Shown here: one piece after another, positions 3,302 through 63,999 of the stretch
How the letters are laid out: every line of letters begins with the position of its first letter
Position numbering within the stretch: the first letter of the stretch is position 1
Source of the DNA: Aurantiochytrium sp. KH105
Taxonomy: Eukaryota; Sar; Bigyra; Thraustochytrida; Thraustochytriidae
Length of the DNA stretch: 64,000 nucleotides
Direction of reading: 5' to 3'
Assembly: GCA_003116975.1 (NCBI GenBank)
Contig: BGKB01000058.1
Span: 248,001-312,000, forward strand
Translations under genes and position numbers: made by a program
Notes under the pieces: model-generated
Told to the model about the DNA's origin: nothing
The model's input: the letters and a program-made list of their open reading frames with translations, nothing else
Databases searched by the model: none

Positions 3302-4128
3302 CCCTGGCTAGCCACATAAAACGGGACGAAATTGGGACGAAATCTCTGCTCACGTTATCCGTCTGGGCATGATCAGATCTACACCGCGTGTTATGAAATT
3401 GAGCGCAAAGCTAGGTTTTCATGTCTAGATTACTATACTAAAGTTTGAGATTCTGAAAAGTGTTTTTGATTGAGATTTAGATGAAAGACTGACTTGGCGG
3501 CTGCGAGTATAAAGTGGTCTATTTGGTCAGAATAGGTCTCGTCCCGAAAAACGGGACGAAATTAATTAAGGCTAATATGACTAAGACCCTCTTACTGGAG
3601 TTTCGTGTAGTAAATTTAAGAATTGCGTTGCGCTCGGAGAATTTATTGCTGCGGCGCTCGCACGTCACCATCCTCAAAGGCGTGCGTCATGGCGTGGACG
3701 AACTTGCGCTGCCGACCACAGCGCGAAGAAGGATGATGCGAGAACAGCTGCGGCACGTCTGCTGGGTGATCTCGTCGTTGCGCGTCGCAACGCGACGCCA
3801 AGGTAAGGCTATGCAGCCGTCGCAGCTATCAACGAAGAGCGGTGGTTAGGCTCCCGCTACAATGCCAACAAGTACCCACTTTGCAGATCATGCTTGATCA
3901 TGTCTACCGGATGAATCTCCCCGAAAACTTGCATGGCGACGGAGGGGTATCGTGGGAATAACCATGCCAACGCGCGAGATTTAAATTTGATCTGGGGTAT
4001 TTCTTTCAATGACTTTTCTGATTTTTAGATATTTCGTCCCGTTTTTCGGGCCGAGACTACACCCCGTTTCGGCAAAACTATTTCGCCGATGATTTCGTCC
4101 CGAAAAACGGGACGAAATTTAGCCAGGG
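3302..4128. mobile_element. Non-autonomous DNA transposon (MITE-like, 827 bp) with hairpin repeats
   Basis: Both ends carry the 9-bp inverted repeat CCCTGGCTA (3302-3310 and its complement at 4120-4128), and both are flanked by TTAG (3298-3301 and 4129-4132), which reads as a target-site duplication of 3-4 bp. A TTA duplication would fit PIF/Harbinger elements. Inside, the motif GGGACGAAAT or its complement recurs near both ends and in the middle. At about 3539-3561 and 4093-4118 it forms inverted repeats around an AAAAA loop, and a weaker copy lies near 4030-4048. A 111-codon frame at 3514-3849 has no recognisable domain. The superfamily is uncertain because no transposase is present. Confidence 0.7.
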
Positions 4129-14253: not shown

Positions 14254-15397
14254 GCTCTCCTCCCCCCAAGTTGATCAGCCTGCCTATAAATCGCAGCGAC
14301 GTCGCGCACGTTCTGGGCGCTTTTCGACGCCCTCGAGCGCTTTCTGTCCAGGCCGAGGAGCACCGGGCGCAGCTCAGCTTGCGTCGTGCGAGGCCAGGTC
14401 TCCGACGCCGCGGCAGGGCCTCCGCCGGTGGTTGGGATTTGATCTCCCCGCGCGGCCCGTCTCGGCCCCTCTGGGCGGGAATGGCCGACTTGCGCGGGGC
14501 GATGCTGCACTTGCGCGGGGCGGAGGCCCATTGTGGCGGGCTCGGGCGCAAGTGGCGTATCTTGCGAAAGGCCGACTTGCCGCCGCTCCTTTCTCGCTCT
14601 CCTCCCTCCCCCGCCTCGCTTCTTTCTCTCTCTCCTTCATTTCCCGCATTCTCTCGATCCGCCAGGGGCGCATCAGAGCCGCGCCGCCGCCGCCGCCGCC
14701 GCCGCCACCGCCGCCGCTGCCGCCGCGCCGCGCGCGCAGGACGCCGGGAGTCCCGCTCGCGCGCACGCAGCAGAGGCCGCCGCGGAGCCGCCGCGGGAGC
14801 CGCGGGAGCCGCGGGAGCCGCGGGCGAAAGTTCATCGATTTCATCGCCGCCGCCGCCGCCGCCGCCGCCAGGCCGCCGCGCCAGGCCGCCGCCGCCGAGC
14901 CCGCGCCGCCGCCGCGCGGAGAGCGGGGCGCCTGCGCGCGAGCGTCGCGCGCAAGAGGACGGCAGCGCGCCGCCGCCCCGCCCCCGCGCGAGGGCCCGGC
15001 CGCCCAGCCCGTGCCGCCGGGCGGCGTCGGGAAGGCGGCCCGGACGCGCGAGCCCGTCGTCTTCGTCTTCGTCGAGNCGCTCGCGCGCAAGAAGCCGGCA
15101 GCGCGCCGCCGCCCCGCCCCCGCGCGAGGGCCCGGCCGCCCAGCCCGTGCCGCCGGGCGGCGTCGGGAAGGCGGCCCGGACGCGCGAGCCCGTCGTCGTC
15201 GTCGTCGTCGTCGAGGAGGTGGACAAGGCCGCTGCTGACGGTGGTGGAGACGTACGAGGCGCGCGACGAGGCCGAGAAACAGAAAGTCCTCATCGTCGAG
15301 GAAAAGCGCCGAGAGGGCCCGAGACAAGTTGAAGCTCTTTGTGGCAAGCAGGCAGAGCAGCGGCCAGTAGGCATTCCGCGTCCAGAGGCTCGCGGAA
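14254..15397. other. GC-extreme divergent region between CobW-family and HDAC genes
   Basis: The interval is a CpG-island-like leader with GCC/GCG triplet runs (about 14680-14715 and 14845-14875), a tandem duplication with an ambiguous base, and a TCG run at 15190-15213. Frames cross it in all phases on both strands as Ala/Arg/Pro/Gly low complexity. I therefore call no gene. Confidence 0.6.
14943..15213. repeat. Two-copy tandem duplication (~135 bp unit) with an N at the junction
   Basis: A unit of roughly 130 bp at about 14943-15076 is repeated nearly exactly at about 15078-15213. The copies differ at a few bases near the left end (AAGAGGAC versus AAGAAGCC) and in the length of the TCG run at the right end. 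The single undetermined base, at 15077, falls exactly between the copies, so an assembly collapse or bridging artefact is possible. Confidence 0.75.
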
Positions 15398-25643: not shown

Positions 25644-27365
25644 ATGATGACAGATCAGCAGCAACAGCAGCAGGCGGTCCACGAGGATTCGCAGTATGCT
25701 TACGAGAATGAGCGTCCTGCCTTCGGATCGGAGATCAACATGGGCGGCGGCGGCGGCGTCATCATTCAAGAGAATATCGACAACCGCAGCCTGGCGCAAC
25801 GTGCTCATGCCAATGCCAAGCTGTGCGGCATGGGTATGCTGGCAGGTGCAGGCATGTTCTCCGAGGCCTACTTTCTCTTTGCCATCGGCAACGTTAAAAA
25901 CATCTGGAAACAGCTCTACCCTGAGTGCTACGATGGCGACGCCAGCTGCAGCGAGAACCTTGTCAGCAGTCTGACCTACATTGAAGTCATTGGCGTGATC
26001 ATTGGTATGCTCACCTTTGGCTACTTTGCCGACACCTTTGGCCGCCGCATCGGCTCGTGCAGCACGGCGATCATCATGTGTGTCGGCGGCATCCTCACGG
26101 CTGCCTCGGACGCCAGCTACCTGACTGGCCAGTGGATTTTCTTTGCCGTTGCGCTCTTCTTCTTCTCGTACGGAGTTGGCGGTGAGTACCCGCTCGCTTC
26201 GGCGTCTGCGGCTGAGCGGGCCGAAGAGGCCAAGAAGCGTCACTCTTACGCGCACCACATTCGCGGCAAGAGCGTCGTGCTGACCTTTGCCATGCAGGGT
26301 GTGGGCAACTTTGTCAACACCCTCATTATCATCTTTATCCTCCTCGGCCAAGGTTGCGATGGCGCCAGCGAGGATTGCTCAGATCGCTCTCTCGAGCTCA
26401 CCTGGCGTCTCCAGTACGCCATTGGCGCTCTCTTTCTCGTTGCTCTCGCCATTGGCCGTGTCATCTTCCTCAAGGAATCCAAGGTTTGGCAGACGAACCG
26501 TACCAAGTCGGATGAAATCGCGAGCAGTGCCAAGAGCGGCAACCACCGAAGCCTCATGTTCAAGCACTATTGGCATCGTCTTGTCGGTACTGCGGTCGGC
26601 TGGTTTGTTTGGGATATCGTCTTTTATGGCAACAAGCTCTTTCAGGGCACCATCATCAAGGTGATCATTGGCTCCGATGCCACCATTTACCAGACGCTCG
26701 AGTACACTCTTCTCAACTCTGGAGTTGCTCTCGTCGGCTACTACGTGGCTGCATTCACCATTGACAAGCCTTGGATGGGTCGTCGCCGCCTGCAGACCAT
26801 TGGTTTCTTCTGGATCTTTGCCCTCTTTCTCATTTGCGGCTGCGCCTACGAGGACCTCTCCAAGCCTGAGAACATTTCTTGGTTCCAGGCTCTTTACTAC
26901 CTGAGCTCCTTCTTTGGTCAGTTCGGCCCGAACTCCACCACCTGGCTTCTTCCCTCGGAACTCTTTCCCACGGACGTCCGCAGCCAGGCTCACGGTATCT
27001 CTGCCGCCTCTGGCAAGCTTGGTGCCCTCTTTTCGTCCTTGCTCTTCACCTACGGTTCTGGTGGTGAAGCGCTTGATGCCAAGATCATCTTCATCGTCTG
27101 CGCCGTCTGCGGTATTGTTGGTCTTGTCGTGACCGAGCTTTTTGTTCCAGATGTCACCAGCATGGACCTTTCCCACGCCGACGAGCGCTGGGAGCTTATT
27201 TTGGAAGATCGCGAGAATGAGTACTCTGGCGATGCTGTCAACGCCGAGTACCTCTCCCGCTTTGAGCGCATGATTGGCATCAAGCCTGCGCTCAAGTCTG
27301 CCTCTAAGGCCCGCGAGGACGTTAGCAAGGCTTCTTCGATTGAGAAGAACCCGGCTCTCGCTTAG
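25644..27365 (+). CDS. PHT1/PHO84-type phosphate:H+ symporter (MFS)
   Basis: The 573-residue product has about twelve membrane segments and the major-facilitator signature GYFADTFGRRIG between helices 2 and 3. The phosphate-transporter signature appears as GVGGEYPLASASAAE (GGDYPLSA in fungi and plants), and FYGNKLFQ lies in helix 7. FFGQFGPNSTTWLLPSELFP followed by TDVRSQAHGISAASGKLGA is nearly invariant in the PHO84/PHT1 family. A cytosolic loop of about 60 residues separates the halves, and both tails are hydrophilic. The role is plasma-membrane inorganic phosphate uptake. The first of two tandem ATGs (25644) follows AACC. An N-terminal Gln run and a Gly run are low-complexity additions. 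The substrate is strongly suggested by the family; close relatives of other specificity exist. Confidence 0.92.
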   Translation: MMTDQQQQQQAVHEDSQYAYENERPAFGSEINMGGGGGVIIQENIDNRSLAQRAHANAKLCGMGMLAGAGMFSEAYFLFAIGNVKNIWKQLYPECYDGDASCSENLVSSLTYIEVIGVIIGMLTFGYFADTFGRRIGSCSTAIIMCVGGILTAASDASYLTGQWIFFAVALFFFSYGVGGEYPLASASAAERAEEAKKRHSYAHHIRGKSVVLTFAMQGVGNFVNTLIIIFILLGQGCDGASEDCSDRSLELTWRLQYAIGALFLVALAIGRVIFLKESKVWQTNRTKSDEIASSAKSGNHRSLMFKHYWHRLVGTAVGWFVWDIVFYGNKLFQGTIIKVIIGSDATIYQTLEYTLLNSGVALVGYYVAAFTIDKPWMGRRRLQTIGFFWIFALFLICGCAYEDLSKPENISWFQALYYLSSFFGQFGPNSTTWLLPSELFPTDVRSQAHGISAASGKLGALFSSLLFTYGSGGEALDAKIIFIVCAVCGIVGLVVTELFVPDVTSMDLSHADERWELILEDRENEYSGDAVNAEYLSRFERMIGIKPALKSASKAREDVSKASSIEKNPALA

Positions 27366-27575
27366 ATTGGCATTTCTCCTTCCCTTTCTTCGTAGTTTTT
27401 TTTCTTGTAGATTATATCAAACACCTTCGTCTCCTTTTACTTCGTTTTCTATTTTTTCTGCTCTCTTTTGCGTCAGTCATTCATGATACTGCTGGCAACA
27501 TGTCGTGTGTTGTGCGCTGACCTGACTGTAGACCCCTTTTACCTGCCTTTCTAATAAAAAAATCGTCCCAAAATA

Positions 27576-27587
27576 GACGATATGCAT
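27576..27587 (+). repeat. Candidate left terminal inverted repeat of the ISL2EU-like element
   Basis: GACGATATGCAT, preceded by TA, pairs with the right end at 32631-32642 with one mismatch. A 16-17-base near-match in inverted orientation that brackets both genes is unlikely by chance, but there is no second copy in the window to confirm the boundary. Confidence 0.45.
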
Positions 27588-27821
27588 TGGTGCTCTGAAA
27601 CGCCTAAAAACGTGCAATTTCTCCTTAATCTACCCCCCACCTGTCAGATTAACTACTGGTAAGCAGGGAGAGGGCCTTGCGCGAAAAGAGATCAGAGCTG
27701 CAACTTAACCGTAGCAGACTGTCTGCGCGCTGGAGGCGCGTGCGCGGGTGCTTGCGCGCGCAAAAGCAGCGAGCGCGTGGGACTCGGAGCGAAGAAGCCA
27801 GAAGCGTGATCTCGTGTCGTC

Positions 27822-30281
27822 ATGGGTGTTACGGAGCTGCTCAAACAACTACGTTCGAAGCGACACAACGTCCAGCTCTACGAACTCTTGCGCGACAAGG
27901 ATGTTGGGATTGACGCCTCAGTCTGGCTGCACATGTACGTGAGCGTGCAGCATGAAGAGGTCTCAAAGGGCAACTTCACTAGCATCGTGCAAGGTTTTAT
28001 TGGGCGGCTTAAGAAGCTCAAAACATGGGGCGCTCGCCCTATCGTCGTCTTCGATGGCGTTTCAAACGAAATAAAGGCAAGCACGAACTCTGCAAGAAGC
28101 AACAAACGCGATAAAATTGTCCAAGGTTTGATGGAAGACCTACAAGCTTGCCTCAACGCCGGCGAGGAGCCTTCGACCGCGCTCATGGAAAAGATCTCAA
28201 AGGCAAACGCTGGCGTCACCCGTGATCTTGTTTACGCAGTTATCAGGCAGTTGCGAGTGGAGGGATACCCCTATGTGGTGGCACCCTACGAGGCAGATCA
28301 CACGCTTGTGGCGTTGCTCCATGAAGGTTCCATCCAATACATTATCTCAGTTGACTCAGACATGCTCGTTCACCGCGGCGGAAATGTCGTTGTCATCCCA
28401 CCGGGCTTCTGGCAGGACGGTTTGGGCATTCTCTACGACCCAGCGGCAAATACTGCGCCAGAAGATGAATCAAACGCGCTCTGCGACCGTCCACGTGACT
28501 TGGGTCTTATCATTGACAGAGTTGTAGGACACCACGCATGCGAGCCGCGTGAAGCGGCGGCCGCTGTGTGCCTTGCGTACGCGTTACTCGTGGATTCGGA
28601 CTATCACAACCTTAAAGGCGTTGGGGCAAAAACGGCACTGTCCGTCATGGAGCTGCTCTTGCATCGCGGAGTCACGCTGGAAAGCTGGAAAGACCCTGAT
28701 CAGCTCGCGGACATTCTCTGCAACAATTACGCGAAGCAACTACGCAAAGAGGATGTTGTCTCGGACATGAAAAGGGCGAAGGGCGGTCTTCTTGGGGGCA
28801 TCGCGCTGCACCTTGCAAAGCGCGAGATCAATTATCTCGATGAGAAGGTGGCGATTGACTCGGGATGCATTGTACGTTTCGGCAAAACAAGCTTCGACCG
28901 CGAGCAAGTGGACCTCATCTCCCTGGGTCTGCTTTGCATGCGTGATGGATGTGGATGCCAGAGGGAGAAGCCGAAACACCATGACGTTGGTCGGGGCTAT
29001 TCTGTGATTCAGCCTCAGGACACAGTCCAGCCTGTGCAGCTCACAGAAGACCTTATTATCGGGGCCAAGATGCGTGAGGAACATGTTGACACAGCATCGC
29101 TTGCCCAGTTGGCCCGCTGGCTCCGCACTCGCGGGCAATTTGCGTCTGGCAAGAAAAAGCATGAGCTTCGCGCGAGCGTGCGTGCCCAAATGGCTGCTGA
29201 AGCAGCAGCAAAGAAAGAGAATCGCCAGCTTACCAATCTGCGTTGCCCAGAGGGCCTCAGCGTCCTGCAGCTGTTGAGAAACTGCGGGCGGAATGTAGAC
29301 CTTCCACTGATAGACAACTCCGAAGCCAAGGCTGCACTTGCCGCCATCCCGTCAGACCGCTGGATCACCTATATCGGCGAAATGCAAGAGCGAGCGCCGC
29401 TGGTCTCGGAACAGTTGTTGCAGAAACATTTCAAGGACGTATGTACGAAGAAAGGTGTTTTTCGAAAAGGTTACAAGCGCATTTGCTTCCGCACACATCT
29501 TCGCGGATTCGCAGCCTACTTTGTACCGAATGGAGACAAGCCTGCCAAAGAGTGCTGGTTCAGGCTTCACTGCCCAAGGTCAATGGTCAATGCCACCTAT
29601 CCTGTCTTTGTGCGTTGTTCCATCGAATGGCATGAAGCGATGGACGGACGGCCTCCGTACGTGACAAAAGTCTGTGACCAGATGTGCGCCTGCCCCGCCG
29701 CCCGAGTTGATCAGGGATGCGTGCACGTGTGTGCTTTGCTACAAGCCGTGCAGAATCTTCGTCGCCGAGACCCGCGCGACAGCTGTCCAACGAGTATGCG
29801 CTGTGAATGGAACACGGCACGTGCTAAAGTCGAGGAGGACCTGGTGAACAATGAGATCTCTTATCTCGTCTTTGAGAAGGCTGATCCTTCCCAACAAGAA
29901 CAGAGAAAGAAGCACAACCCAGTGTGCATGTCAAATGATCTTGGTCGTGGAGCCTACGACCCCTGCCCTCCTGCTGTAGTCAATTCCGTCCTGCGGGATT
30001 TGCAAATGCGAGAGAAGTCGACATTGATTCCTAAAATCTTCAAGCTTATTGAAGTATGCGCGCAAGGTACTGAGGAAGGTGAAACGGGCATGTCGGTTAT
30101 GTACACGAAAGAACATGCGGCGAAAACTCGCTATGATCTCTGGTACAACTACGCGACTGCCGAGCTACAACGGACAGGTCTCGACAAAATCTCTCCTGAG
30201 CTCTCTGAGGCTTGGGAGTCGGAACTCTGCGCTGATGATACGGAGGCTGATCCTAATCAAGAGAATGACGGAAGCTTTTGA
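27822..30281 (+). CDS. XPG/FEN1-like nuclease fused to SAP-like and SWIM zinc-finger segments (transposon accessory protein)
   Basis: The 819-residue product opens with an XPG N-domain (MGVTELLKQL, GIDASVWLHMY, ARPIVVFDG) and an XPG I-domain (VAPYEADHTLVALL, IISVDSDMLV), then a helix-hairpin segment DSDYHNLKGVGAKTAL. The metal-binding acids are all present: D31, D78, E157, D159, D178, D180, D260, spaced almost as in FEN1. Residues about 420-460 (LAQLARWLRTRGQFASGKKK) look like a SAP DNA-binding motif. Residues about 620-645 carry a SWIM zinc finger (CACPAARVDQGCVHVC), followed by SCPTSMRCEWN, both typical of ISL2EU second proteins. The YqaJ nuclease usual there is absent. A structure-specific nuclease acting during transposition is my inference. 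Its stop codon lies 18 bp from that of the convergent transposase. Confidence 0.85.
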   Translation: MGVTELLKQLRSKRHNVQLYELLRDKDVGIDASVWLHMYVSVQHEEVSKGNFTSIVQGFIGRLKKLKTWGARPIVVFDGVSNEIKASTNSARSNKRDKIVQGLMEDLQACLNAGEEPSTALMEKISKANAGVTRDLVYAVIRQLRVEGYPYVVAPYEADHTLVALLHEGSIQYIISVDSDMLVHRGGNVVVIPPGFWQDGLGILYDPAANTAPEDESNALCDRPRDLGLIIDRVVGHHACEPREAAAAVCLAYALLVDSDYHNLKGVGAKTALSVMELLLHRGVTLESWKDPDQLADILCNNYAKQLRKEDVVSDMKRAKGGLLGGIALHLAKREINYLDEKVAIDSGCIVRFGKTSFDREQVDLISLGLLCMRDGCGCQREKPKHHDVGRGYSVIQPQDTVQPVQLTEDLIIGAKMREEHVDTASLAQLARWLRTRGQFASGKKKHELRASVRAQMAAEAAAKKENRQLTNLRCPEGLSVLQLLRNCGRNVDLPLIDNSEAKAALAAIPSDRWITYIGEMQERAPLVSEQLLQKHFKDVCTKKGVFRKGYKRICFRTHLRGFAAYFVPNGDKPAKECWFRLHCPRSMVNATYPVFVRCSIEWHEAMDGRPPYVTKVCDQMCACPAARVDQGCVHVCALLQAVQNLRRRDPRDSCPTSMRCEWNTARAKVEEDLVNNEISYLVFEKADPSQQEQRKKHNPVCMSNDLGRGAYDPCPPAVVNSVLRDLQMREKSTLIPKIFKLIEVCAQGTEEGETGMSVMYTKEHAAKTRYDLWYNYATAELQRTGLDKISPELSEAWESELCADDTEADPNQENDGSF

Positions 30282-30299
30282 AATAAGAAGATTCAGTGC

Positions 30300-32339
30300 T
30301 TACTTTTTTGCAGGTACCGTGATGGGCGGGCCATTAAGACTCACTAGGCAGCACGCGACCTTGAAAGCCGCAGTTATCATATCCACCTGGTGGATTGGGA
30401 CCTTTTGGGTGAGCCAATGGTAGTCTTTGACACGATTTATTGCTCTCTCTACGTGAATCCGAAAGTTTGCGATTTTCCGTGTGTCATTTGCCTCCTCTCG
30501 TGTAAGCGTGTGCTGCCCCTTGAATCGTTTTGGTGGCATGTACAGATATGCACCCTTTCGCTTGGCCAGCTCATCGAAGATTACGAAACCTTTGTCAGCC
30601 ATGATGCTTTGACCCGGGTGAGCGCAGACCTCGTAGAAACCCGATCGCTCTGTCAGTTTGGGGTCTGATATACGTCCTGGATAGGCAGCAGACTGCCATG
30701 CAATAGTACCACAAGCACTCAGACCAATCAGCAACTTGGCTGTATTGCGCGCCTTGTATTCGCTCCAAGTTGCACTCTGAGCCATTGGGTTGTCTGGTAC
30801 TTGAATTTCGAGCTCAGTGGCATCAAGAATCCAGCTGATCGTGTGGTGACCAAATCGCTCAGAGACGTCTGTGGGGCACGTAACATCCAGCATACACGGC
30901 AACGGAGTTGGAAACATGCGTGAGAAAGTACGATGCAGAAGATGGATGCCGAATTCAAAGGTTCGCGATATCGTGGATTGGTGAACATCAAACAACGAAC
31001 CCATCACGATCTGACTCAAATTAAGGCGCAGGATCATCAGCGTAATGAGAAGTTTGTCCTCAAGCAAAAGAGGAGCCTTTCGGTGAGAGGGCGATCTGCT
31101 TGACGGAGTTGAAAGACTGTCCGAGGCTTCGGACCTATTGAGCTTTTTTTTCAGTCCTTGTTCAGACTTCGCGAACCCCTTGTCCTCACGAAAGCTCTGC
31201 CACTTGGCGGTAGCTGCACTGCGCTGCTTCGCGTGACAGCCACCGAAATCATGGACTGCAGACACTATTTCGTCGAAAGCAGGTACGCCGCTGACGCCAG
31301 TGTAAAATCGAAGTATTCTGGCGAAGCGCGGAATCGACTTGAAAGATGCCCACCTTAGAGGAACTTGAGAAGAAGAAGTTTTTGTGACCGCTTCTCGCAA
31401 AATGGCGTAATAATCTTTCGCTTCTTTGGCCTTCGCCCGCGCTTCTTTCTTGGCCTGTTTGGAATCGCTGACGGCAGCGTCTCGTTCTTCACGGAGCTTT
31501 TGGAGTTCAGCTTGAAGCTCTTTGTTCTCTGTTGTCAGTTTCTGATTATACACTGTCAGCTTTTCTTTGTCGCTTTGGAGTTCATGAATCGTGAAATCCG
31601 TAAGAGTTGCCAATCTCTCTGAGAGAGTATTAGCACGAGCGTCAGCTTGGCTTGCATTCGAGGTCTTGACAAGGAGAGCCTGCGCACGTTTCTTAGCAGA
31701 GCTGGCCTCATGTGACAGTCGCCTGATTTCATTCTTTGCCTCATCACTCCTTTGGTTCGCAACTTCAAGCTTCGCGTCAAGCTTTCGCGCCTTCTGGGTG
31801 CGCTCATGATCAGCGTCACTCTCTGCATAGCGGGCACGCGATGTTCGACGGCGTTTTGCCTGACTGCGCTCAGGCGAAGCGATGTGACTTGTGAGTCTGC
31901 GCTCCGCTATCGACTTTGGTGTGAGCTTATCGCTCGCCAGTACCCATTTGCTAGTCTTCCACACAGCCCTCTCACCAGCCGGTGGAGGAGACATTGCCGT
32001 TTCGGCAGCTATCACTTGGGTTATATCAGACTTCAAGACCCAATCGTTCGTCTTACGTGTGTCGAACTCAAAAGAGTTTGGGTTAAAATGATGCCAGCGG
32101 AAGCGGCTTCTTGCTCTTGTCCCTGTAGCAACATTCTGCCGCAATCTGTTGAATATTACATCTCGCGCCTTGCTCTCGCGAAGTGCTGCTGCATCTGTTC
32201 TCGTGTGACGGTTGCTTCTGTAAATCTCGGAAGTGCGGAAAGGACCTTGTTTATTCTGGCACCATTTCAGTGTGCATGAACATTTCGTATTGCTAGGCGA
32301 TTTCACAGCCGACATTTGCTCTGCAAGCGCGCCCGACAT
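30300..32339 (-). CDS. ISL2EU/Harbinger-type DDE transposase
   Basis: The first in-frame ATG is at 32337-32339, giving 679 residues; the frame is open slightly further but only with GTG. The N-terminus has a Cys pair (KCSCTLKWC) that may be part of a zinc finger. A long charged coiled coil follows at about residues 180-330. Next comes a helix-turn-helix, LLITLMILRLNLSQIVMGSL then HQSTISRTF. The DDE_4 catalytic core is complete: D506 in WILDATELEI, D582 in IMADKGF and E631 in FRIHVERAINRVK, with SDPKLTERSG between. These motifs are the hallmark of ISL2EU transposases. It cuts and pastes the element DNA in the nucleus. No stop or frameshift interrupts it. Confidence 0.92.
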   Translation of the reverse strand: MSGALAEQMSAVKSPSNTKCSCTLKWCQNKQGPFRTSEIYRSNRHTRTDAAALRESKARDVIFNRLRQNVATGTRARSRFRWHHFNPNSFEFDTRKTNDWVLKSDITQVIAAETAMSPPPAGERAVWKTSKWVLASDKLTPKSIAERRLTSHIASPERSQAKRRRTSRARYAESDADHERTQKARKLDAKLEVANQRSDEAKNEIRRLSHEASSAKKRAQALLVKTSNASQADARANTLSERLATLTDFTIHELQSDKEKLTVYNQKLTTENKELQAELQKLREERDAAVSDSKQAKKEARAKAKEAKDYYAILREAVTKTSSSQVPLRWASFKSIPRFARILRFYTGVSGVPAFDEIVSAVHDFGGCHAKQRSAATAKWQSFREDKGFAKSEQGLKKKLNRSEASDSLSTPSSRSPSHRKAPLLLEDKLLITLMILRLNLSQIVMGSLFDVHQSTISRTFEFGIHLLHRTFSRMFPTPLPCMLDVTCPTDVSERFGHHTISWILDATELEIQVPDNPMAQSATWSEYKARNTAKLLIGLSACGTIAWQSAAYPGRISDPKLTERSGFYEVCAHPGQSIMADKGFVIFDELAKRKGAYLYMPPKRFKGQHTLTREEANDTRKIANFRIHVERAINRVKDYHWLTQKVPIHQVDMITAAFKVACCLVSLNGPPITVPAKK

Positions 32340-32630
32340 CAGGCCCACGACGTGCGGACAACCTAACCACCACCACGGAGACCGAGCTCGTCGAACGTCA
32401 AAAACGTTGTATATACGCTTGGGGCAGCTGTGAGAGCTCGCGAGGCACTAGCCTGACCAATGTGCTTTCCAACTCGCGACACTCCCACCAGCGCGCAGAC
32501 CACGACGGGTCGACTTCGCACGAGGGAATTGATAATGCACAAGGTGAACGAGGACCCCAAAATCGCGCAAGGTAAATAGGCCACTTTGGCCGAAGAGGTA
32601 GGTTTGGAGCGAAATAGGGCTCTTTCGACG

Positions 32631-32642
32631 ATGCATATTGTC
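32631..32642 (-). repeat. Candidate right terminal inverted repeat of the ISL2EU-like element
   Basis: ATGCATATTGTC followed by TA is the inverted partner of the left end at 27576-27587. Confidence 0.45.
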
Positions 32643-32698
32643 TATTGCCTATCCGTTACAAAAATCTAGGTTTTTCAAGTCTGAATGAAGGTCAGTCC

Positions 32699-32841: not shown

Positions 32842-33990
32842 ATGCGCCGCTCGCGACCGAGCGAAGAAATCGCAGCACCCAGTGTCGTTGACAAGGCGCG
32901 AAACGCCTTGCGCCGTGCGCGATTTCCCTGGGTCAGCCTGCCTCGTTCTGCATCGAAACGCGCTCCAGCATCCTACGTGGTAAACGCGGGGCAAAGTGCC
33001 TCTAAATCCACACAGGAGCAGGGTCAAAAGGACGCTACCACTTGCGAGCCATTTGCAGACCTTGGGACGATTACGCTTTGCGCAGCATCCGGTCCAAGTC
33101 AAGATGAGGTGGTCGTCCTGTCTGACGAAGGACATGCCTTTGTCGTTAATACGCAAGGCACAACGACAGCGCAATGGCAAGCTCACGCTCGCAGCATCTC
33201 AAGCGCACACAGCCAGAACTATGGGTCATCTGCAACCTATGCGCTCGCAACTGGATCAAGAGACTGTAGCGTGAAGTGCTGGGATGCATCGCGAAATTGC
33301 ACCATGCATGTACAAGACGCACACGACATGAACGTTTCAGCCGTGTGTCTGCACCCTTCGCGCCAAGGACTCCTTGCCTCTGGTTCGAGAGACACCTCGG
33401 TCAAGATTTGGGATGCGCACGGCACTCGAATTGCCCGAATGCAAGTCGCAAGAAACATTGTCACATGCATGACTTTTAGTGGAAACGAGGACACAGAGGC
33501 TGGTCTTCTCTGGCAAGGTAGTGAGGATCTTGCTGTGCGCGCATGGGACTGGCAGCGTTCGCCTTGCTCACAATCACCAAGCATCACTCTCTCCAAATAT
33601 GTCTACTTTCCAACCTCGATTGCAGTTTCTGGCCACATGCTTATGACCGGTTGCAAAGGCTTTCAGCAAGGGGAAGGTTGCGAGGTGTTTTTCTGGGATC
33701 TACGAAACACAAGCGAACCTCTGGCCGTTCTTGGCGGTCATGGCCAGGATGTTATTTCCTGTTTAATCTTAAAAGAGGGTCGCACAGCTGCAACGCTGTC
33801 AAAGGACTCGACAATACGTAGCTGGGAGATGGGGGCTGATTCCCCACGTTCTCTCGAGAGTCTGTCCATTGAGGGAGCGAGCCCGCCTGTTGCCATGGTC
33901 AATTTGGGGGACCAGTCTGGACACGTTGCGACGTTGAACTTTTCTGGGCAGGTGCGCAAGCACGAGCTCGCACATAATGGACAGAAATAG
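32842..33990 (+). CDS. WDR31: WD40 protein, WDR31-like
   Basis: The first in-frame ATG is at 32842, giving 382 residues. After a basic N-terminal stretch of about 60 residues comes a WD40 propeller with blades marked by ATGSRDCSVKCWD, LASGSRDTSVKIWD, WQGSEDLAVRAWD, EVFFWDLR and LSKDSTIRSWE. Two features match animal WDR31 better than WD40 proteins in general: VARNIVTCMTF after the second blade, and MTGCKGFQQGEGCEVFFWDL, which parallels the GFGGEGCEATLWDLR of human WDR31. WDR31 is a ciliary protein that works with GTPase regulators in ciliary traffic. The orthology is from remembered motifs and the ciliary role is inferred from it. It is convergent with the kinase gene. Confidence 0.75.
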   Translation: MRRSRPSEEIAAPSVVDKARNALRRARFPWVSLPRSASKRAPASYVVNAGQSASKSTQEQGQKDATTCEPFADLGTITLCAASGPSQDEVVVLSDEGHAFVVNTQGTTTAQWQAHARSISSAHSQNYGSSATYALATGSRDCSVKCWDASRNCTMHVQDAHDMNVSAVCLHPSRQGLLASGSRDTSVKIWDAHGTRIARMQVARNIVTCMTFSGNEDTEAGLLWQGSEDLAVRAWDWQRSPCSQSPSITLSKYVYFPTSIAVSGHMLMTGCKGFQQGEGCEVFFWDLRNTSEPLAVLGGHGQDVISCLILKEGRTAATLSKDSTIRSWEMGADSPRSLESLSIEGASPPVAMVNLGDQSGHVATLNFSGQVRKHELAHNGQK

Positions 33991-34435
33991 GGTTACCAGC
34001 GCATAATTTCAAATTTAGCAATGTACCCTTTTTGCAAAGAAAACTTGAGCAAAAGCAAAGTCTTTCTATTCGTTCCCGCCCCGAAAAATAGTGCAACTGT
34101 GAAGTTTCAGCAAAAACAATGTTCCTGATCACGGAAGCGCACCAGACGCGATGAGCAATGACACATCGCACTCTACTTCACCCATTGTAAAGAAAAGATG
34201 CAGAAAAGGAAGAAGAAAAAAAAAGAATAATCTTTCATGTTAGAAATACTTGCAGTCACATTATTATTGTACAAGCGTGCGAGCGTGCACGCTGCCTTCG
34301 CTCTTCGTGTCTGCTGCTATTTCATGGTGTCCTTGCCTCATTGGTAAAAGACGATTTACAGAAAATAAAGAAGATCTCTCCACTTTGGAAGAAGAACTCT
34401 CCACTTTGGCGAACATTTGCAGCGTCAGGTTTTTA
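33991..34435. other. Convergent 3' region containing an inverted copy of the kinase gene end
   Basis: This AT-rich interval lies between the WDR31-like and kinase genes. It contains the inverted partial duplicate at 34100-34186 and otherwise no gene. Confidence 0.6.
34100..34186 (+). repeat. Inverted duplicate of the 3' end of the kinase gene
   Basis: The plus strand here encodes PDHGSAPDAMSNDTSHS, while the kinase on the opposite strand ends SDHGSAPDAMSNDPSHS before its stop. A core of about 35 bp is nearly identical and the similarity extends to roughly 80 bp at lower identity. The copies are about 270 bp apart in opposite orientation and could fold into a hairpin in any transcript that spans both. 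Confidence 0.75.
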
Positions 34436-35968
34436 TCATACAATGGCGACAGAGTGCGAAGGATCGTTGCTCATCGCGTCTGGTGCGCTTCCGTGATCAG
34501 AAGCATTGTCTTTCGCGTGTGAAGTTTCGGAGGCAGGCACTTTGATGCTGGTGTTGCTATCCCCCTGCAAGGAAGTTTCCACATTCTGAACAATCGTCCT
34601 TTCTGCCTGTGGCGCCAAAACATCGGGTTCAAGCTCCCGAACCAAAACAATGTTGCGGCCATCGACATTGTCCAGAGGAGGCTGACCATCCTCAAACTCG
34701 ATAAAGAGGCAGCCATTGGGTTGTTGTGCATGAAAGAGTGCGTCGCCAAGAAATGTACGCGCTTCCGGGTCCCAGACACAAAAGGCCTCGGCATCGGACG
34801 GATCTGCCTCACGATGCGTGGTGACAAGTCTTGGGACCTCGTCTGGGACGAGGGCTTCGAGAGCTGCCAAGAGCTGTTGTGTGGTAGGTCGCTCATCAGG
34901 GTTTTCGTGCCAGCAGCGTTGCAGCAAGACCTGGAAACCTTGAGGAATATCTGGCTCGATCGCGGGTCGCATCTTGTTGCCAGCCACCTCTCGAAAGAGC
35001 TCCGGGAGGGTCCAGTCAGGATGTGGCCGATCTCGATGAAGCACCTCCCAGAGGAGAATTGCAAAGGAGTAAACATCGACACGATTGGAAATTCGCGAAA
35101 TGTCTCCACGCAAGAGCTCCGGGGCCATGTAGCTTGGCGTTCCGATGCGCAAATCATTGTGGAATGTGAGCGAGGATGGCGTGGAGAGTTTGGTCTGACG
35201 CGCAATGCCAAGGTCTGCGACCTTGGCGCGACCGCCCATGTCAATAAGCACGTTTGCAGGCTTGATGTCAAAGTGAATGAGGCCGTGCGAGTGGACCGAA
35301 AGCAAACCAGCAGCGACTTGTCGCGCCCAGGAGAGAGCAGTGGCCATTGGCACGATTGCATTTGTGTCACGAAGCATGTCACGCATGCTACAAGCACATA
35401 GCTCCATGACGAGGAGTCGTCGGAAAGAGTGTGTAACGTCATTTTCGATGATGGCCGTCCCGTACATGTCGACGATGTTGGGGTGCCGGAGTTTGCGCAG
35501 GTTGTTGAATTCACGCGCGAATTCTTGGTTGAACTTTTCGTCGCGCGCACGCTCGCGTTCCTCGAAGGTGGCTCCTCGCAGAGACGCCTGCAGGTCTGCC
35601 TCTTCAGCCTCCGAAAAGCGGACATCGCTCAGCATTTCCTTGACTGCGACTGGGTACCCGTAGTAGGAGCCCACAAAGACACAGCCGTTGCCGCCCTGGC
35701 CGAGCAGCTTGCCGAGCGAGAGCTTGTCCGGGTCTACGTGGTAGTTCTCCTCGCTCGACTCATCGCGGAGCTGCGCAGTCTGGCTCGTGTCAAAGAGCCC
35801 CCCCTCTTTGTCGTCGTCGTCGTCGTCGTCGTCGTGTAGCCACACGCACGTACAGAGTCCGCAGCACGAAGTTGAGATGACCTCCCGCTTGGAGCCGACG
35901 CCAAGGCTTTCCAAGATGGCGCGGTGCTCTTCCAGCTTGCGCCGTCGCGCGCGCCGGACAGCCTTCAT
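34436..35968 (-). CDS. Protein kinase, TKL/dual-specificity-like
   Basis: The first in-frame ATG is at 35966-35968 (510 residues); the frame is open 22 codons upstream but without ATG. The leader has a Cys cluster (STSCCGLCTCVW), which might be palmitoylated, then a run of eight aspartates coded by a GAC repeat. The kinase domain spans about residues 85-375: glycine loop GQGGNGCVFVG, VAIK-like AVKE (K110), the catalytic loop HFDIKPANVL (D234, with HFD in place of HRD), DLG in place of DFG (D252), and GTPSYMAPELL. Catalytic Lys and both Asp are present, so activity is expected. A polar C-tail of 130 residues follows. The sequence style (HPNIVDMYG, HENPDERPT) is tyrosine-kinase-like (TKL). The substrate is unknown. 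Confidence 0.88.
   Translation of the reverse strand: MKAVRRARRRKLEEHRAILESLGVGSKREVISTSCCGLCTCVWLHDDDDDDDDKEGGLFDTSQTAQLRDESSEENYHVDPDKLSLGKLLGQGGNGCVFVGSYYGYPVAVKEMLSDVRFSEAEEADLQASLRGATFEERERARDEKFNQEFAREFNNLRKLRHPNIVDMYGTAIIENDVTHSFRRLLVMELCACSMRDMLRDTNAIVPMATALSWARQVAAGLLSVHSHGLIHFDIKPANVLIDMGGRAKVADLGIARQTKLSTPSSLTFHNDLRIGTPSYMAPELLRGDISRISNRVDVYSFAILLWEVLHRDRPHPDWTLPELFREVAGNKMRPAIEPDIPQGFQVLLQRCWHENPDERPTTQQLLAALEALVPDEVPRLVTTHREADPSDAEAFCVWDPEARTFLGDALFHAQQPNGCLFIEFEDGQPPLDNVDGRNIVLVRELEPDVLAPQAERTIVQNVETSLQGDSNTSIKVPASETSHAKDNASDHGSAPDAMSNDPSHSVAIV
35805..35836. repeat. GTC/GAC triplet run inside the kinase gene
   Basis: An uninterrupted GTC run on the plus strand encodes the poly-Asp stretch of the kinase N-terminal region. 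It is an in-frame coding microsatellite. Confidence 0.8.
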
Positions 35969-60800: not shown

Positions 60801-61175
60801 GCCTGCATTGGAATGGCGCAAGGCCATTCGGATGCCATTCAATTTGATTCCAAGGTTGTACGCCGAATTTTCGAAGTAGAGGCTCGCAGCAATCCTCGAC
60901 GCGCGCTCGGAAGGCAGCAAATCGAACTCATCCTTACGGAGCTTGCAAAAAAGGGATTTTTGCAGCACAAGGAAGAAGCAAGATCGCGAAAGTCGAAGCG
61001 ACGAATGTGGGAATTCGTATCGCCTTCAGCTTTGCGAGCCGTCTTAGACATCGTTCCTCATGACCGTCGTCGTAAAATCCAGATGCTTGTCGAAAAGAAC
61101 GAGCGCACGACATACCCTTATGAGCCAATCCCGTACGACCCCATTGAACGCCTCGATGCAGCTGGTCTTTCCTAG
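57831..61175 (+). CDS. Soluble adenylyl cyclase (ADCY10)-like protein
   Basis: The 1,114-residue product has the soluble adenylyl cyclase order: C1 cyclase domain (about 95-300), C2 cyclase-like domain (about 395-570) and a P-loop NTPase domain. In C1 the two metal-binding acids are D104 in LFVDISGFTRMG and D156 in VVKYAGDALLC, with the purine-selecting K152 (K95/D99 in the human enzyme). C2 carries LLYDDKGIVFIAVFG and GSNRRHDFMVMGSSVNEAARL. Walker A is GGPGLGKTT near residue 632 and Walker B-like LLVIIEDAVW near 780. It makes cAMP; in animals this class is stimulated by bicarbonate and calcium. No membrane segment is visible. It is about 500 residues shorter than human ADCY10, lacking the C-terminal helical repeats. 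Confidence 0.88.
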   Translation: MLSKLRKTGAAARKRRSIGSQASEKSRGMDPKQLAKLEHTFESQGDDDSTDDANVKSFVSTMSQPLTQGEVAFLCKSARLYVQRYANDEGPRVNARQGVVLFVDISGFTRMGITLRDKLSPVTAVERFSRNAVDIITSWTSIVERYGGDVVKYAGDALLCTWLVPSAEDRRAAEFARSKAQRLAESEGRAASLQSDPEQAATLEQLMRLANRAALDMLKHPQNENLKITLHGGIGVGTLQNIFLCDGTGSLRWNLVTGQAVNDASALMEISARGEVSVANDAAFAENGECWTITAQSVHSKDVMHFAQSPEDYSSLRPQSFMPIFFGASPVAPPSLPMRPRGTRARHIPKEINATLAHNRAVAVSAAVAAAVQRGPSLDPRAVRAFIPLALRGRINRYAFQGGELRWCATMFVSIPDVKVGPEQDEVGDLVGLHNFNDIFLNVSRLIHNSNGEVRDLLYDDKGIVFIAVFGAYRRLENSELWLMRAARAIRRQIPKCAIGAAAGLCFAGLCGSNRRHDFMVMGSSVNEAARLMGGAVGRSSETEGCIIVDDKIHDSTDRYYVYETCVVHKEKATYTEKFVGNILRKRRHNTRRGTLTDMPHSTQVGRSVCEGLIQNFVEINSDSLALMTIEGGPGLGKTTMANWMRKTLQYPLLFTHANAGTMDEPFAALRRLVERALEINRDMENSGDLFARLDEIEADFDISRERLAFLLPFVARAIGVEDEADAAEGDATAATNNAKAKSRGTLRRTSSWASFSSLQSNNNIDMEDLHRVYELLLDVFRIMRGEEKTLLVIIEDAVWLDPASRRLLLEMCERKDETGSLVLAMTFRSDSDADKVSGEWQACVAEMCKAVGKQTKIKLEPFSRDATRALITQILEQRGLEPSIGPLRRASVFMTKSSSPSTSKIFSIHDDVADLVYRKTEGNPGAIVEKTNMLFDKACVTLNKNREVVFSSEKKRELAEQSSAQSVLELFLDRFDQLDEEEQAVIKVAACIGMAQGHSDAIQFDSKVVRRIFEVEARSNPRRALGRQQIELILTELAKKGFLQHKEEARSRKSKRRMWEFVSPSALRAVLDIVPHDRRRKIQMLVEKNERTTYPYEPIPYDPIERLDAAGLS

Positions 61176-61442: not shown

Positions 61443-63999
61443 TTAGGCAAGGTCCATGCTGAGGCTCTTCGACAGCTCGGCCTCATTCCCCGCACTTGCA
61501 GCAGCGACGCGGGCGCCAGAGGCACTCGCGTTCTTGGGTTCACGTTTCTTGTCCCCTTCGTCATCTTCATCGTCCTCGTCCTCATCGTCGCCATCATTCT
61601 CCTCGACGGAAAGACCCGTGTCTCCTCCCGTCGTCATTGGGCCTTCTCCCGGGAGGGTAGCGGCGCGCGAGCGTGACTTTTTCGTTGCTGGTGGTGGAAG
61701 CGCGGTGAGATCGTCCGTGGTTCGCATATCCTGCGTGATATCGCCCGTCAAGTTGGTCATGTCGCCCGTCTGAGTGCCTGTGCGTGGCGCCGTCGTGGCT
61801 CCCGGAGCCGACGTCTGCCGTGACCCGCTGCCAATCTTTTTCTTCACCGCACGAGACACGCTCGCGAACTCGGGGGCCGTCACAAAGTAAACCTTGGGGC
61901 CGATTACGAGCAAGATGAGAATCAACGAGGTGAAGACCAGCGTTGAAGAAATGAGAAAGGTCTGCGACTTGACCTCAAGCGGCAGTCCCGCAACGAGAAT
62001 CATCGTCAGGAAAATGATCATGGTCGTGACGTAGCTCGCCATCATGATACTGCGACTCTCCATGTACTTTGCATCACTGTTGCGGCCCTGGTACGAAAGA
62101 AAAGTAGTGTAAAGCAAAATCAAGACCACATAGACGACCCCAAGGACGGGAAAAACAATGTACTCGTTGTGGCTATCTGCGTTGCTCCCTCCAAAGTAAA
62201 CGCACACATTGGCGCTAAAGGTCACATGCAGGCCTGTAATCTGGTACAGGTGCACATCTGCATTTGTCAGCGACGCCTCCATGGCCTGCGGTGCGTCCAC
62301 CGCGAACCACACAATCAGCAGCAATGTCATGCCGAACATGATGCCCATCAAAATTTTGAACATGAAGAAGGCCGAGATGGAGATGCGACGCATTGTCGAG
62401 TTGTTCCAAATCCGCCAGATACGGTACACCTTGACTGTGAGCGATCCGACCAAGAGCGTGAGGCTTAGCGCCAAGTTGGCAATTCGAGTACGGCACTTGT
62501 TGGTTTGATTCGGTCCGAGGAACGACATGGCAGCCACGTTGCACCAAATGCCCGCAAAGCACATGAGCACCAGGAACTCGCGCTGCCCAGCCTTCATGGC
62601 CACGCTAGAGTAGTGACGGAGGACAACAAAGAGAAAGATGTAGCAAATGATGGCGCCGATGCTCGAAAGCGAAATTAGAATCCGGCCTGTCAGAGACTTG
62701 TACGGCACGTACGGACATTGCAGAGATCCTGTTGTAGGGAGCTCGATTTGGGCAAACGTGTTGTCGCACGCGCATGGCTCGTTCGGGTCAGGGCATTGTC
62801 TCCCTTCGCGGTCTGCCCAAAAGTAGATGACCTCACGAGAGTCGTCTTCGCAAGAGGTTGCTACCGCTTGCACAAAGCCAACCATGGTGCAGTTGCTTGG
62901 TTCTGCACCAAAAATGAGCGAAGACGTGAGCTCACCCGTTTTTTCAGCGGGCGGGTAGAGATTTCGCACGCTCAGCTCAACGTTTGTCTCATCCTCATCA
63001 AGAATTGTGATGTCAGCCTGTACGAGAGTCATCTCATACTCGGCTTGGCCATTCGCATTAAACTTGATGGTGCCACCGGGAATGATGCTGTTTGTAAAGG
63101 AGGTCTTCTGCATGTAGCTCCGAACAGACTTTGTTGACGCCGAGTTCGCATTCTCCAGACTTTGCACGAGAACGCGTGCCGACTCGTACGCGAGTGCTGC
63201 GTACCATTCAACTGCAAGCTGGTTTTCGGGCAGCGTAAACATGGTGGTCGAAGCTGCGCCGCCGCTTGTCGAGCTGGCGTCCTCCTCGAAAGCCTCGTCT
63301 GCCCAGGCATACGCCTCGAAGAGTCTCCATCGCTGGGCCCAGTTGCGCGAGATTTCAGGCTTTTGGGACACACTCCACCACAAAGCCGCCACGAGATCTT
63401 GCACAAAAGCTGGATGTTCGAGCTCATGGATGTCCTCAATGTCCACGCCTCTCGCGCCGAATGTTGCAAAATCAAACTTGACGTTTGTTGTGGAAAAGGT
63501 GTCGAGGAGTATGCGGAACTCGGTCGAGTGGGTGTCTGCCATGAGGGCGTGGCAGCGCGAAGAATTCCGAGTCGTGTTGCGGGCAATCTCCATATCCGTT
63601 TCAAGGTGCTTAAAGACATCCTCATCCGTGGTGTCGATCGGGTACGGAAAATTGGTCGCGTAGTATAGGTGAAAGTAGTCTGGATATAAAAGGGTGTAGC
63701 GCGACACCTCTTCGCGAAAAGCATCACCGTGCGTCCCGTTTTCCCACACGAGAGCAATATCACACGGCTTGGCGAGGACACCATTGTCCATCGAGGTCTT
63801 CATGAATTCAAGGACAGTGTCCGTGAGGAACTCGACTGGAGATAGCAGGCCAAACGCCCATTTGCCGTCATTCTTTCCGTAAAGTGGATTTTCCGAGCTC
63901 GTTTCGTACATGGCCGCAGTTGCGCCGCCGCCGTTCACATAGGGCACGTTGTGCTTATTGGCAACTTCGATTTGGGTTGTGATACGGGTGGAGCTGTAG
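61443..63999 (-). CDS. Class C (GABA-B-like) G-protein-coupled receptor, N-terminus beyond window
   Basis: The frame is open to the right edge (at least 852 codons), so the N-terminus with any signal peptide is outside. The visible N-terminal 460 residues are a periplasmic-binding-protein-like ligand domain (VPYVNGGGATAAMYETSSEN, VLAKPCDIALVWENGTHGDA, NGQAEYEMTLVQADI), with several N-glycosylation sites. A Cys-rich linker (CPDPNEPCACDN) precedes seven membrane helices from ILISLSSIGAIICYIFLFVV to SLILILLVIGPKVYFV, with the class C loop NKCRTRIANLALSLTLLVGS and KVYRIWRIWNN. The acidic C-tail of about 130 residues is disordered. Expected role: plasma-membrane sensing of a small ligand. The ligand is unknown. 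It is convergent with the cyclase gene. Confidence 0.88.
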   Translation of the reverse strand, partial: YSSTRITTQIEVANKHNVPYVNGGGATAAMYETSSENPLYGKNDGKWAFGLLSPVEFLTDTVLEFMKTSMDNGVLAKPCDIALVWENGTHGDAFREEVSRYTLLYPDYFHLYYATNFPYPIDTTDEDVFKHLETDMEIARNTTRNSSRCHALMADTHSTEFRILLDTFSTTNVKFDFATFGARGVDIEDIHELEHPAFVQDLVAALWWSVSQKPEISRNWAQRWRLFEAYAWADEAFEEDASSTSGGAASTTMFTLPENQLAVEWYAALAYESARVLVQSLENANSASTKSVRSYMQKTSFTNSIIPGGTIKFNANGQAEYEMTLVQADITILDEDETNVELSVRNLYPPAEKTGELTSSLIFGAEPSNCTMVGFVQAVATSCEDDSREVIYFWADREGRQCPDPNEPCACDNTFAQIELPTTGSLQCPYVPYKSLTGRILISLSSIGAIICYIFLFVVLRHYSSVAMKAGQREFLVLMCFAGIWCNVAAMSFLGPNQTNKCRTRIANLALSLTLLVGSLTVKVYRIWRIWNNSTMRRISISAFFMFKILMGIMFGMTLLLIVWFAVDAPQAMEASLTNADVHLYQITGLHVTFSANVCVYFGGSNADSHNEYIVFPVLGVVYVVLILLYTTFLSYQGRNSDAKYMESRSIMMASYVTTMIIFLTMILVAGLPLEVKSQTFLISSTLVFTSLILILLVIGPKVYFVTAPEFASVSRAVKKKIGSGSRQTSAPGATTAPRTGTQTGDMTNLTGDITQDMRTTDDLTALPPPATKKSRSRAATLPGEGPMTTGGDTGLSVEENDGDDEDEDDEDDEGDKKREPKNASASGARVAAASAGNEAELSKSLSMDLA

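Follow-up and report, generated by a model that had tools for sequence, protein, structure and literature searches.

Can a transposon exchange its helper nuclease for one of a different fold? The question is raised by a 5.07-kb segment of the genome of Aurantiochytrium sp. KH105, which lies in the stretch analysed here (BGKB01000058.1, positions 248,001-312,000 of the forward strand; this 64,000-nt stretch is the window, and its own numbering is used throughout) and is filled by two intact convergent genes, one encoding a DDE transposase and the other a protein with an XPG/FEN1-type nuclease domain. We interpret it as what is probably a complete two-gene cut-and-paste DNA transposon of about 5069 bp, belonging to the PHIS (Harbinger/ISL2EU) superfamily, with a sugar-transporter gene on one side of the insertion and a WD40 gene on the other.

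Results

The pairing of the two genes in one transposon had been proposed in an initial annotation of this DNA, and it holds up: the ISL2EU/Harbinger-type DDE gene and the XPG/FEN1-type nuclease gene are both supported by Pfam, and the reading as a single transposon is strengthened by the inverted ends and the A|AT|T flanks, on which that annotation is silent. Both frames are open as had been stated, with an 819-aa open reading frame (ORF) on the plus strand and a minus-strand ORF whose product has 682 aa if translation begins at a GTG (32348) and 679 aa if it begins at the first ATG (32339), their stop codons lying 18 bp apart. The element's longest stop-to-stop frame has 823 codons, whereas no frame in 500 shuffles of it exceeds 334. 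The recent mobility or domestication that the initial annotation read from the intact frames is more than a single visible copy can establish.

The transposase

The minus-strand product matches DDE_Tnp_4 (E 1e-35 over residues 508-669) and HTH_Tnp_4 (E 1.4e-11 over residues 427-475), both above the curated Pfam cut-offs, and the motifs that had led to its description as an ISL2EU/Harbinger-type transposase are all present, LSQIVMGSL, ILDATE, ADKGF and HVERAI beginning at residues 444, 507, 584 and 632 of the 682-aa reading. Neither Pfam family is known to be restricted to ISL2EU within PHIS. The N-terminus (window positions 31869-32339) contains C-x4-C-x-N and HHFNPNSF..W.LKSDITQVI, which to the eye look like a THAP domain in decay; Pfam does not detect one. 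In PADLOC, LmuB matches the coiled-coil stretch of the transposase at 2e-4, alongside weaker matches, and PHROGs gives four matches on the transposase, all weaker than its two on the XPG part of the accessory protein.

The XPG/FEN1-type nuclease

The accessory protein matches XPG_N (E 1.9e-15, residues 1-98) and XPG_I (E 1.9e-7, residues 148-189) above the curated Pfam cut-offs, and all seven of the metal-binding positions listed in the initial annotation (D31, D78, E157, D159, D178, D180 and D260) are acidic, with the residues as given there. Among PDB sequences, EXO1 chains match best (4e-13), RAD2 comes next (3.3e-12) and FEN1 is weaker (5.1e-8 and worse). An archaeal FEN1 profile (30 of the 31 retrieved loci, one archaeal phylum; 51 of the 60 genomes searched gave a match) aligns to residues 14-276 with an E of 2.2e-13, through the helix-hairpin GVGAKTA, and FEN1/RAD2 profiles also match in NCBIfam, where the archaeal FEN1 model reaches 2e-17, far below that model's cut-off. 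In an alignment with seven archaeal FEN1 proteins, six of the acidic residues (D31, D78, E157, D178, D180 and D260) are the same throughout; at position 159 all seven have E, and the accessory protein has D, as does EXO1. The helix-hairpin (H3TH) follows the I region, the FEN1 profile alignment reaching DYHNLKGVGAKTAL; searched alone, this part has no Pfam match and only two in the PDB, to other proteins (0.0031 and 0.047).

With N and I regions, seven acidic residues and H3TH all found, the accessory protein is, judged by its sequence, a member of the XPG/FEN1 5'-nuclease superfamily. It shares the seven metal-binding positions and the helix-hairpin motif with EXO1, FEN1 and RAD2, and differs from them in having a C-terminal half with a SWIM-like motif and in lying inside a transposon. 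In agreement with another claim of that annotation, no YqaJ domain is detected in the protein and XPG is present instead: Pfam lists no YqaJ up to E 10, in a search whose HMMER filters drop most matches above about 0.1. In PHROGs, two families of unknown nature match the XPG part weakly (0.013 and 0.027).

The C-terminal half of the accessory protein

The SWIM-like segment consists of a CxCx8CxH motif, a spacing found exactly in 13 of 20000 composition shuffles (279 of 20000 if any spacing from 6 to 25 is allowed), with an SCPTSMRCEWN motif downstream. Around CxCx8CxH, a low-confidence single-sequence AlphaFold model (mean predicted local distance difference test score, pLDDT, 38.5) has a strand-strand-helix arrangement, which would fit a SWIM domain but proves nothing. 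A PDB search with this half of the protein gave only weak matches (best E 0.056), which were put down to chance among cysteine-rich chains. The YqaJ proteins of ISL2EU presumably have the same order, a SWIM domain and then a CTS..C.WN motif similar to SCPTSM..CEWN here, which we treat as a lead only.

The ends of the element

The two genes are enclosed by terminal inverted repeats, AGACGATATGCAT on the left and ATGCATATTGTCT (as written on the plus strand) on the right, with one mismatch in 13 positions (Table 1). Searched with AGACRATATGCAT, the window has no mismatch-free occurrence other than the two element ends, and one further place, at 61156, with two mismatches. In this single copy each flank has AT, with A before the left one and T after the right one (A|AT|T). 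Since the A|AT|T target is palindromic, the same letters would also fit a TA duplication (27574-27575 being the left copy) or a Spy-like insertion without duplication; a 3-bp duplication was rejected, AAT and ATT not fitting. The limits of 27576 and 32642 given in the initial annotation do mark the outer ends of an inverted repeat, but have to be moved out by one base on each side if the duplication is AT and not TA.

A second inverted pair, GTCTGCGCGCTGGWGG, 16 bp in length, lies at mirror positions 146 and 143 bp inside the ends. A 14-mer mirrored in this way, with one mismatch allowed, turned up in 2 of 2000 shuffles, and between the outer spacers two 16-bp inverted pairs with at most one mismatch were observed, as compared with one in 2 of 60 shuffles and none in the remaining 58. 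Taken singly, each feature of the ends is modest, but in combination, and together with the flanks and the genes enclosed, they are more than that.

Table 1. Features of the element in window coordinates
Feature	Position	Strand	Content or basis
Left target-site duplication copy AT, A before (A|AT)	27573..27574		sequence
Left terminal inverted repeat AGACGATATGCAT	27575..27587	+	sequence, mismatch search
Left subterminal inverted repeat GTCTGCGCGCTGGAGG, offset 146 from left end	27721..27736	+	repeat search
Accessory gene, 819 aa	27822..30281	+	N-terminal XPG/FEN1-type nuclease of ~340 residues; middle segment; SWIM-like motif; SCPTSMRCEWN motif
SWIM-like CxCx8CxH coding segment, residues 622-635	29685..29726	+	pattern search; no Pfam SWIM match
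Tail-to-tail spacer between the two stop codons, 18 bp	30282..30299		sequence
Transposase gene, 679 aa from ATG	30300..32339	-	coiled-coil-like middle, HTH_Tnp_4, DDE_Tnp_4
Right subterminal inverted repeat, offset 143 from right end	32485..32500	-	repeat search
Right terminal inverted repeat, ATGCATATTGTCT on + strand	32631..32643	-	sequence, mismatch search
Right target-site duplication copy AT, T after (AT|T)	32644..32645		sequence

Discussion

Comparison with known transposons

ISL2EU elements encode a transposase (with DDE, helix-turn-helix (HTH) and THAP domains) and, in most autonomous candidates, a YqaJ protein; they make AT duplications at A|AT|T targets, their ends usually start with GG, and their 25 families are all from animals (Han et al. 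2015, PMC4482050). ISL2EU elements with the same two genes, and a transposase carrying HTH or THAP, are reported in a survey of fish (PMC9179366). The Aurantiochytrium element resembles them in its DDE and HTH transposase, its two intact genes of which the second encodes a nuclease, its short inverted ends and its A|AT|T context (PMC4482050; PMC9179366), and its 5069 bp compare with an ISL2EU mean of about 4840 bp. It differs in that its nuclease is of the XPG/FEN1 type with YqaJ undetected, in that Pfam detects no THAP domain and the ends do not start with GG, and in coming from a protist, whereas the 25 published families are animal (PMC4482050). Spy elements, also of the PHIS superfamily, are similar in their DDE and HTH transposase and AT-rich target (PMC4482050; PMC9179366), but mostly have one gene rather than the two found here (PMC9179366).

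Among the features of ISL2EU, the DDE and HTH transposase of PHIS type and the AT duplication in A|AT|T (in one copy) are thus present. Because the YqaJ gene and the GG ends are absent and THAP is undetected, we do not count the element as a member; it is filed as an ISL2EU-like element of the PHIS superfamily with a different accessory nuclease, outside ISL2EU as defined.

Exchange of accessory enzymes is not new as a kind of event, having been described for Kolobok and mentioned for Academ. Kolobok lineages D, E, P and H have accessory DEDDh, lambda-exonuclease-like and His-Me nucleases and a RecQ helicase, which have been exchanged between lineages (PMC9587614). The likeness is that of one transposase superfamily with accessory nucleases or helicases that differ by lineage; the superfamily is another one, and XPG is absent from the available text of PMC9587614. 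Academ elements are set apart by their description, having an Academ transposase and duplications of 3-4 or 9-10 bp as against DDE_Tnp_4 and 2 bp here. The nuclease of AcademX is said to be of XPG type. An accessory helicase or nuclease is mentioned for Academ, and AcademX is like the present element in being a DNA transposon that encodes a nuclease (PMC10045372), but as an Academ element it makes duplications of 3-4 bp.

In the literature searched, outside whose scope lay Repbase entries and most subscription papers, ISL2EU was not found together with XPG, nor was Academ. Among the matches listed for transposons with XPG, SWIM or flap endonuclease, no element like this one is described, judging by titles and the starts of abstracts, and XPG does not occur among the matches listed for XPG and transposons. 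The matches listed for thraustochytrids and Harbinger-type elements mention neither thraustochytrids nor labyrinthulomycetes, and the available part of a 2025 paper on PHIS transposons bearing TET/JBP contains no XPG or SWIM. The swap of nuclease class had been put forward as undescribed, which stands for the combination of ISL2EU and XPG in this literature but not for accessory-enzyme exchange in general, already known from Kolobok and Academ.

One element or several histories

A number of results weigh against a two-gene transposon related to ISL2EU. The second gene is not YqaJ, and the ends start with AG (GA or TA under the other readings of the target site) and not with GG. No THAP domain is demonstrated, since Pfam finds no match for residues 4-160 of the transposase (157 aa from the ATG). 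In the accessory protein, Pfam has no SWIM match, leaving of the earlier SWIM assignment the CxCx8CxH pattern but not a profile, and the SAP-like segment also claimed for the middle of the protein is not recognised by it, the best Pfam match there being Phage_Mu_Gp27 at 0.006, below cut-off. The two single-sequence AlphaFold models (mean pLDDT 34.9 and 38.5) are too poor for use. As for the ends, 8 of 1000 shuffles attain a local alignment score as high as the best one between the two flanks, and the 6.6-kb region contains 27 inverted pairs, the subterminal pair being included and the terminal pair absent among the 25 listed. The element is known from one copy, and a role of the nuclease in transposition is something that we infer.

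Relatives were equally elusive. The viral_contigs collection yielded no confirmed relative of either protein, of the SWIM half or of the DDE core, and the XPG protein gave 10 pattern matches in the prokaryotic genome_contigs, none confirmed as a relative; these two results also count on the negative side. A DNA pattern for RIHVERAI hit 11 loci in viral_contigs, the lowest tblastn E of either protein being 0.48. A CTSxxCxWNxP pattern hit 3 viral and 65 genome loci. None of these loci matches either protein at E 0.01, and none of the 68 motif hits is preceded within 80 codons by an in-frame CxCx4-25CxH; of the 65 genome records, 43 have Pseudomonas in the title. An alignment-guided XPG scan returned 600 pattern matches with none confirmed against the XPG protein, which has no match at E 0.01 in phages either.

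Other histories of the locus can be set against these data. The XPG nuclease could be a captured host gene, a paralogue of EXO1/FEN1 joined to a SWIM-like segment and carried as a passenger without a role in movement. Nucleases of the XPG type commonly serve the host in DNA repair, and the relative codon usage of the XPG gene correlates at 0.94 with that of nine pooled ORFs of the window, compared with 0.83 for the transposase gene. This gene nevertheless occupies the place of the nuclease gene in ISL2EU elements, is one uninterrupted frame 18 bp from the transposase gene, and encodes a SWIM and SCPTSM..CEWN layout that is presumably like that of ISL2EU accessory proteins, so that we consider a passenger unlikely.

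Less probable still is an old insertion kept by the host with both genes now in host function: the intact frames and the lack of a second copy within the 64-kb window would agree with domestication, but the inverted ends still differ at just 1 of 13 positions and the AT flanks are still readable. As to a host XPG gene that merely happens to lie beside a transposase gene, with an accidental inverted repeat, such repeats do arise: 2 of 60 shuffles had a 16-bp pair, one mismatch being allowed, and inverted pairs are numerous in the region. Two pairs at mirror positions, AT flanks in the published ISL2EU target context and the enclosure of both genes between the ends speak against it, and because of these ends and flanks we reject chance adjacency as very improbable.

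A transposon with two genes of its own therefore remains the preferred interpretation. A bolder reading, which we regard as quite possible without asserting it, is that it represents a distinct protist lineage of ISL2EU-like transposons in which an ancestral YqaJ/lambda-type 5'-to-3' exonuclease was replaced by an EXO1/FEN1-type nuclease, the SWIM DNA-binding half being kept. If the SWIM segment were homologous to that of the ISL2EU YqaJ proteins, the two genes would have come together by a swap inside a single lineage and not independently.

A possible mechanism

Given the family of the transposase, excision and integration would be the work of the DDE protein, which would cut at the inverted ends with a 2-bp stagger at A|AT|T. 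The accessory protein may hold the DNA by its SWIM-like segment while its XPG domain, as a 5'-nuclease, would trim 5' flaps or overhangs at the ends after strand transfer during integration; alternatively, it might resect the 5' strands at the donor-site break in the 5'-to-3' direction. Our best suggestion, a tentative one, is that the XPG protein acts on 5' ends in transposition, as a flap or resecting nuclease. EXO1 and the lambda-exonuclease-type (YqaJ) enzymes both degrade DNA 5' to 3', so that an exchange would alter the fold of the helper nuclease but not its polarity.

Neighbouring genes and other features of the window

The sugar transporter gene ends at 27365 and the WD40 gene starts at 32842, both belonging to ordinary eukaryotic gene families, a point in favour of the transposon reading. 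Scans of the window for tRNAs and Rfam families gave no matches. A GC-rich stretch has a tandem duplication of a 136-bp unit (2.0 copies at 14939-15210, 95% matches), and blastn pairs 14845-15210 with 14700-15074 at 75%. A 63-bp inverted repeat, 89% identical (34112-34174 and 34451-34513), lies at the 3' end of a protein kinase gene, and a sequence of 25-27 bp is repeated in direct and inverted orientation within 600 bp (3536-4119). An 822-aa ORF (61443-63911) encodes the seven-transmembrane domain of class C G-protein-coupled receptors (7tm_3, 1.3e-28), with a periplasmic-binding-like match at 1e-5, below cut-off.

Implications

The element suggests that transposons can exchange helper nucleases. 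While such exchange of accessory enzymes was already known in other transposons, an XPG/FEN1-type nuclease in an ISL2EU-like element is new to the literature searched, and this defined two-gene system is open to testing. Independent replacement by another nuclease class would amount to a natural experiment pointing to the processing of 5' ends as the activity needed. The bolder reading, if true, would show that what these transposons require is a 5'-nuclease of any fold, and that it takes part in the transposition reaction.

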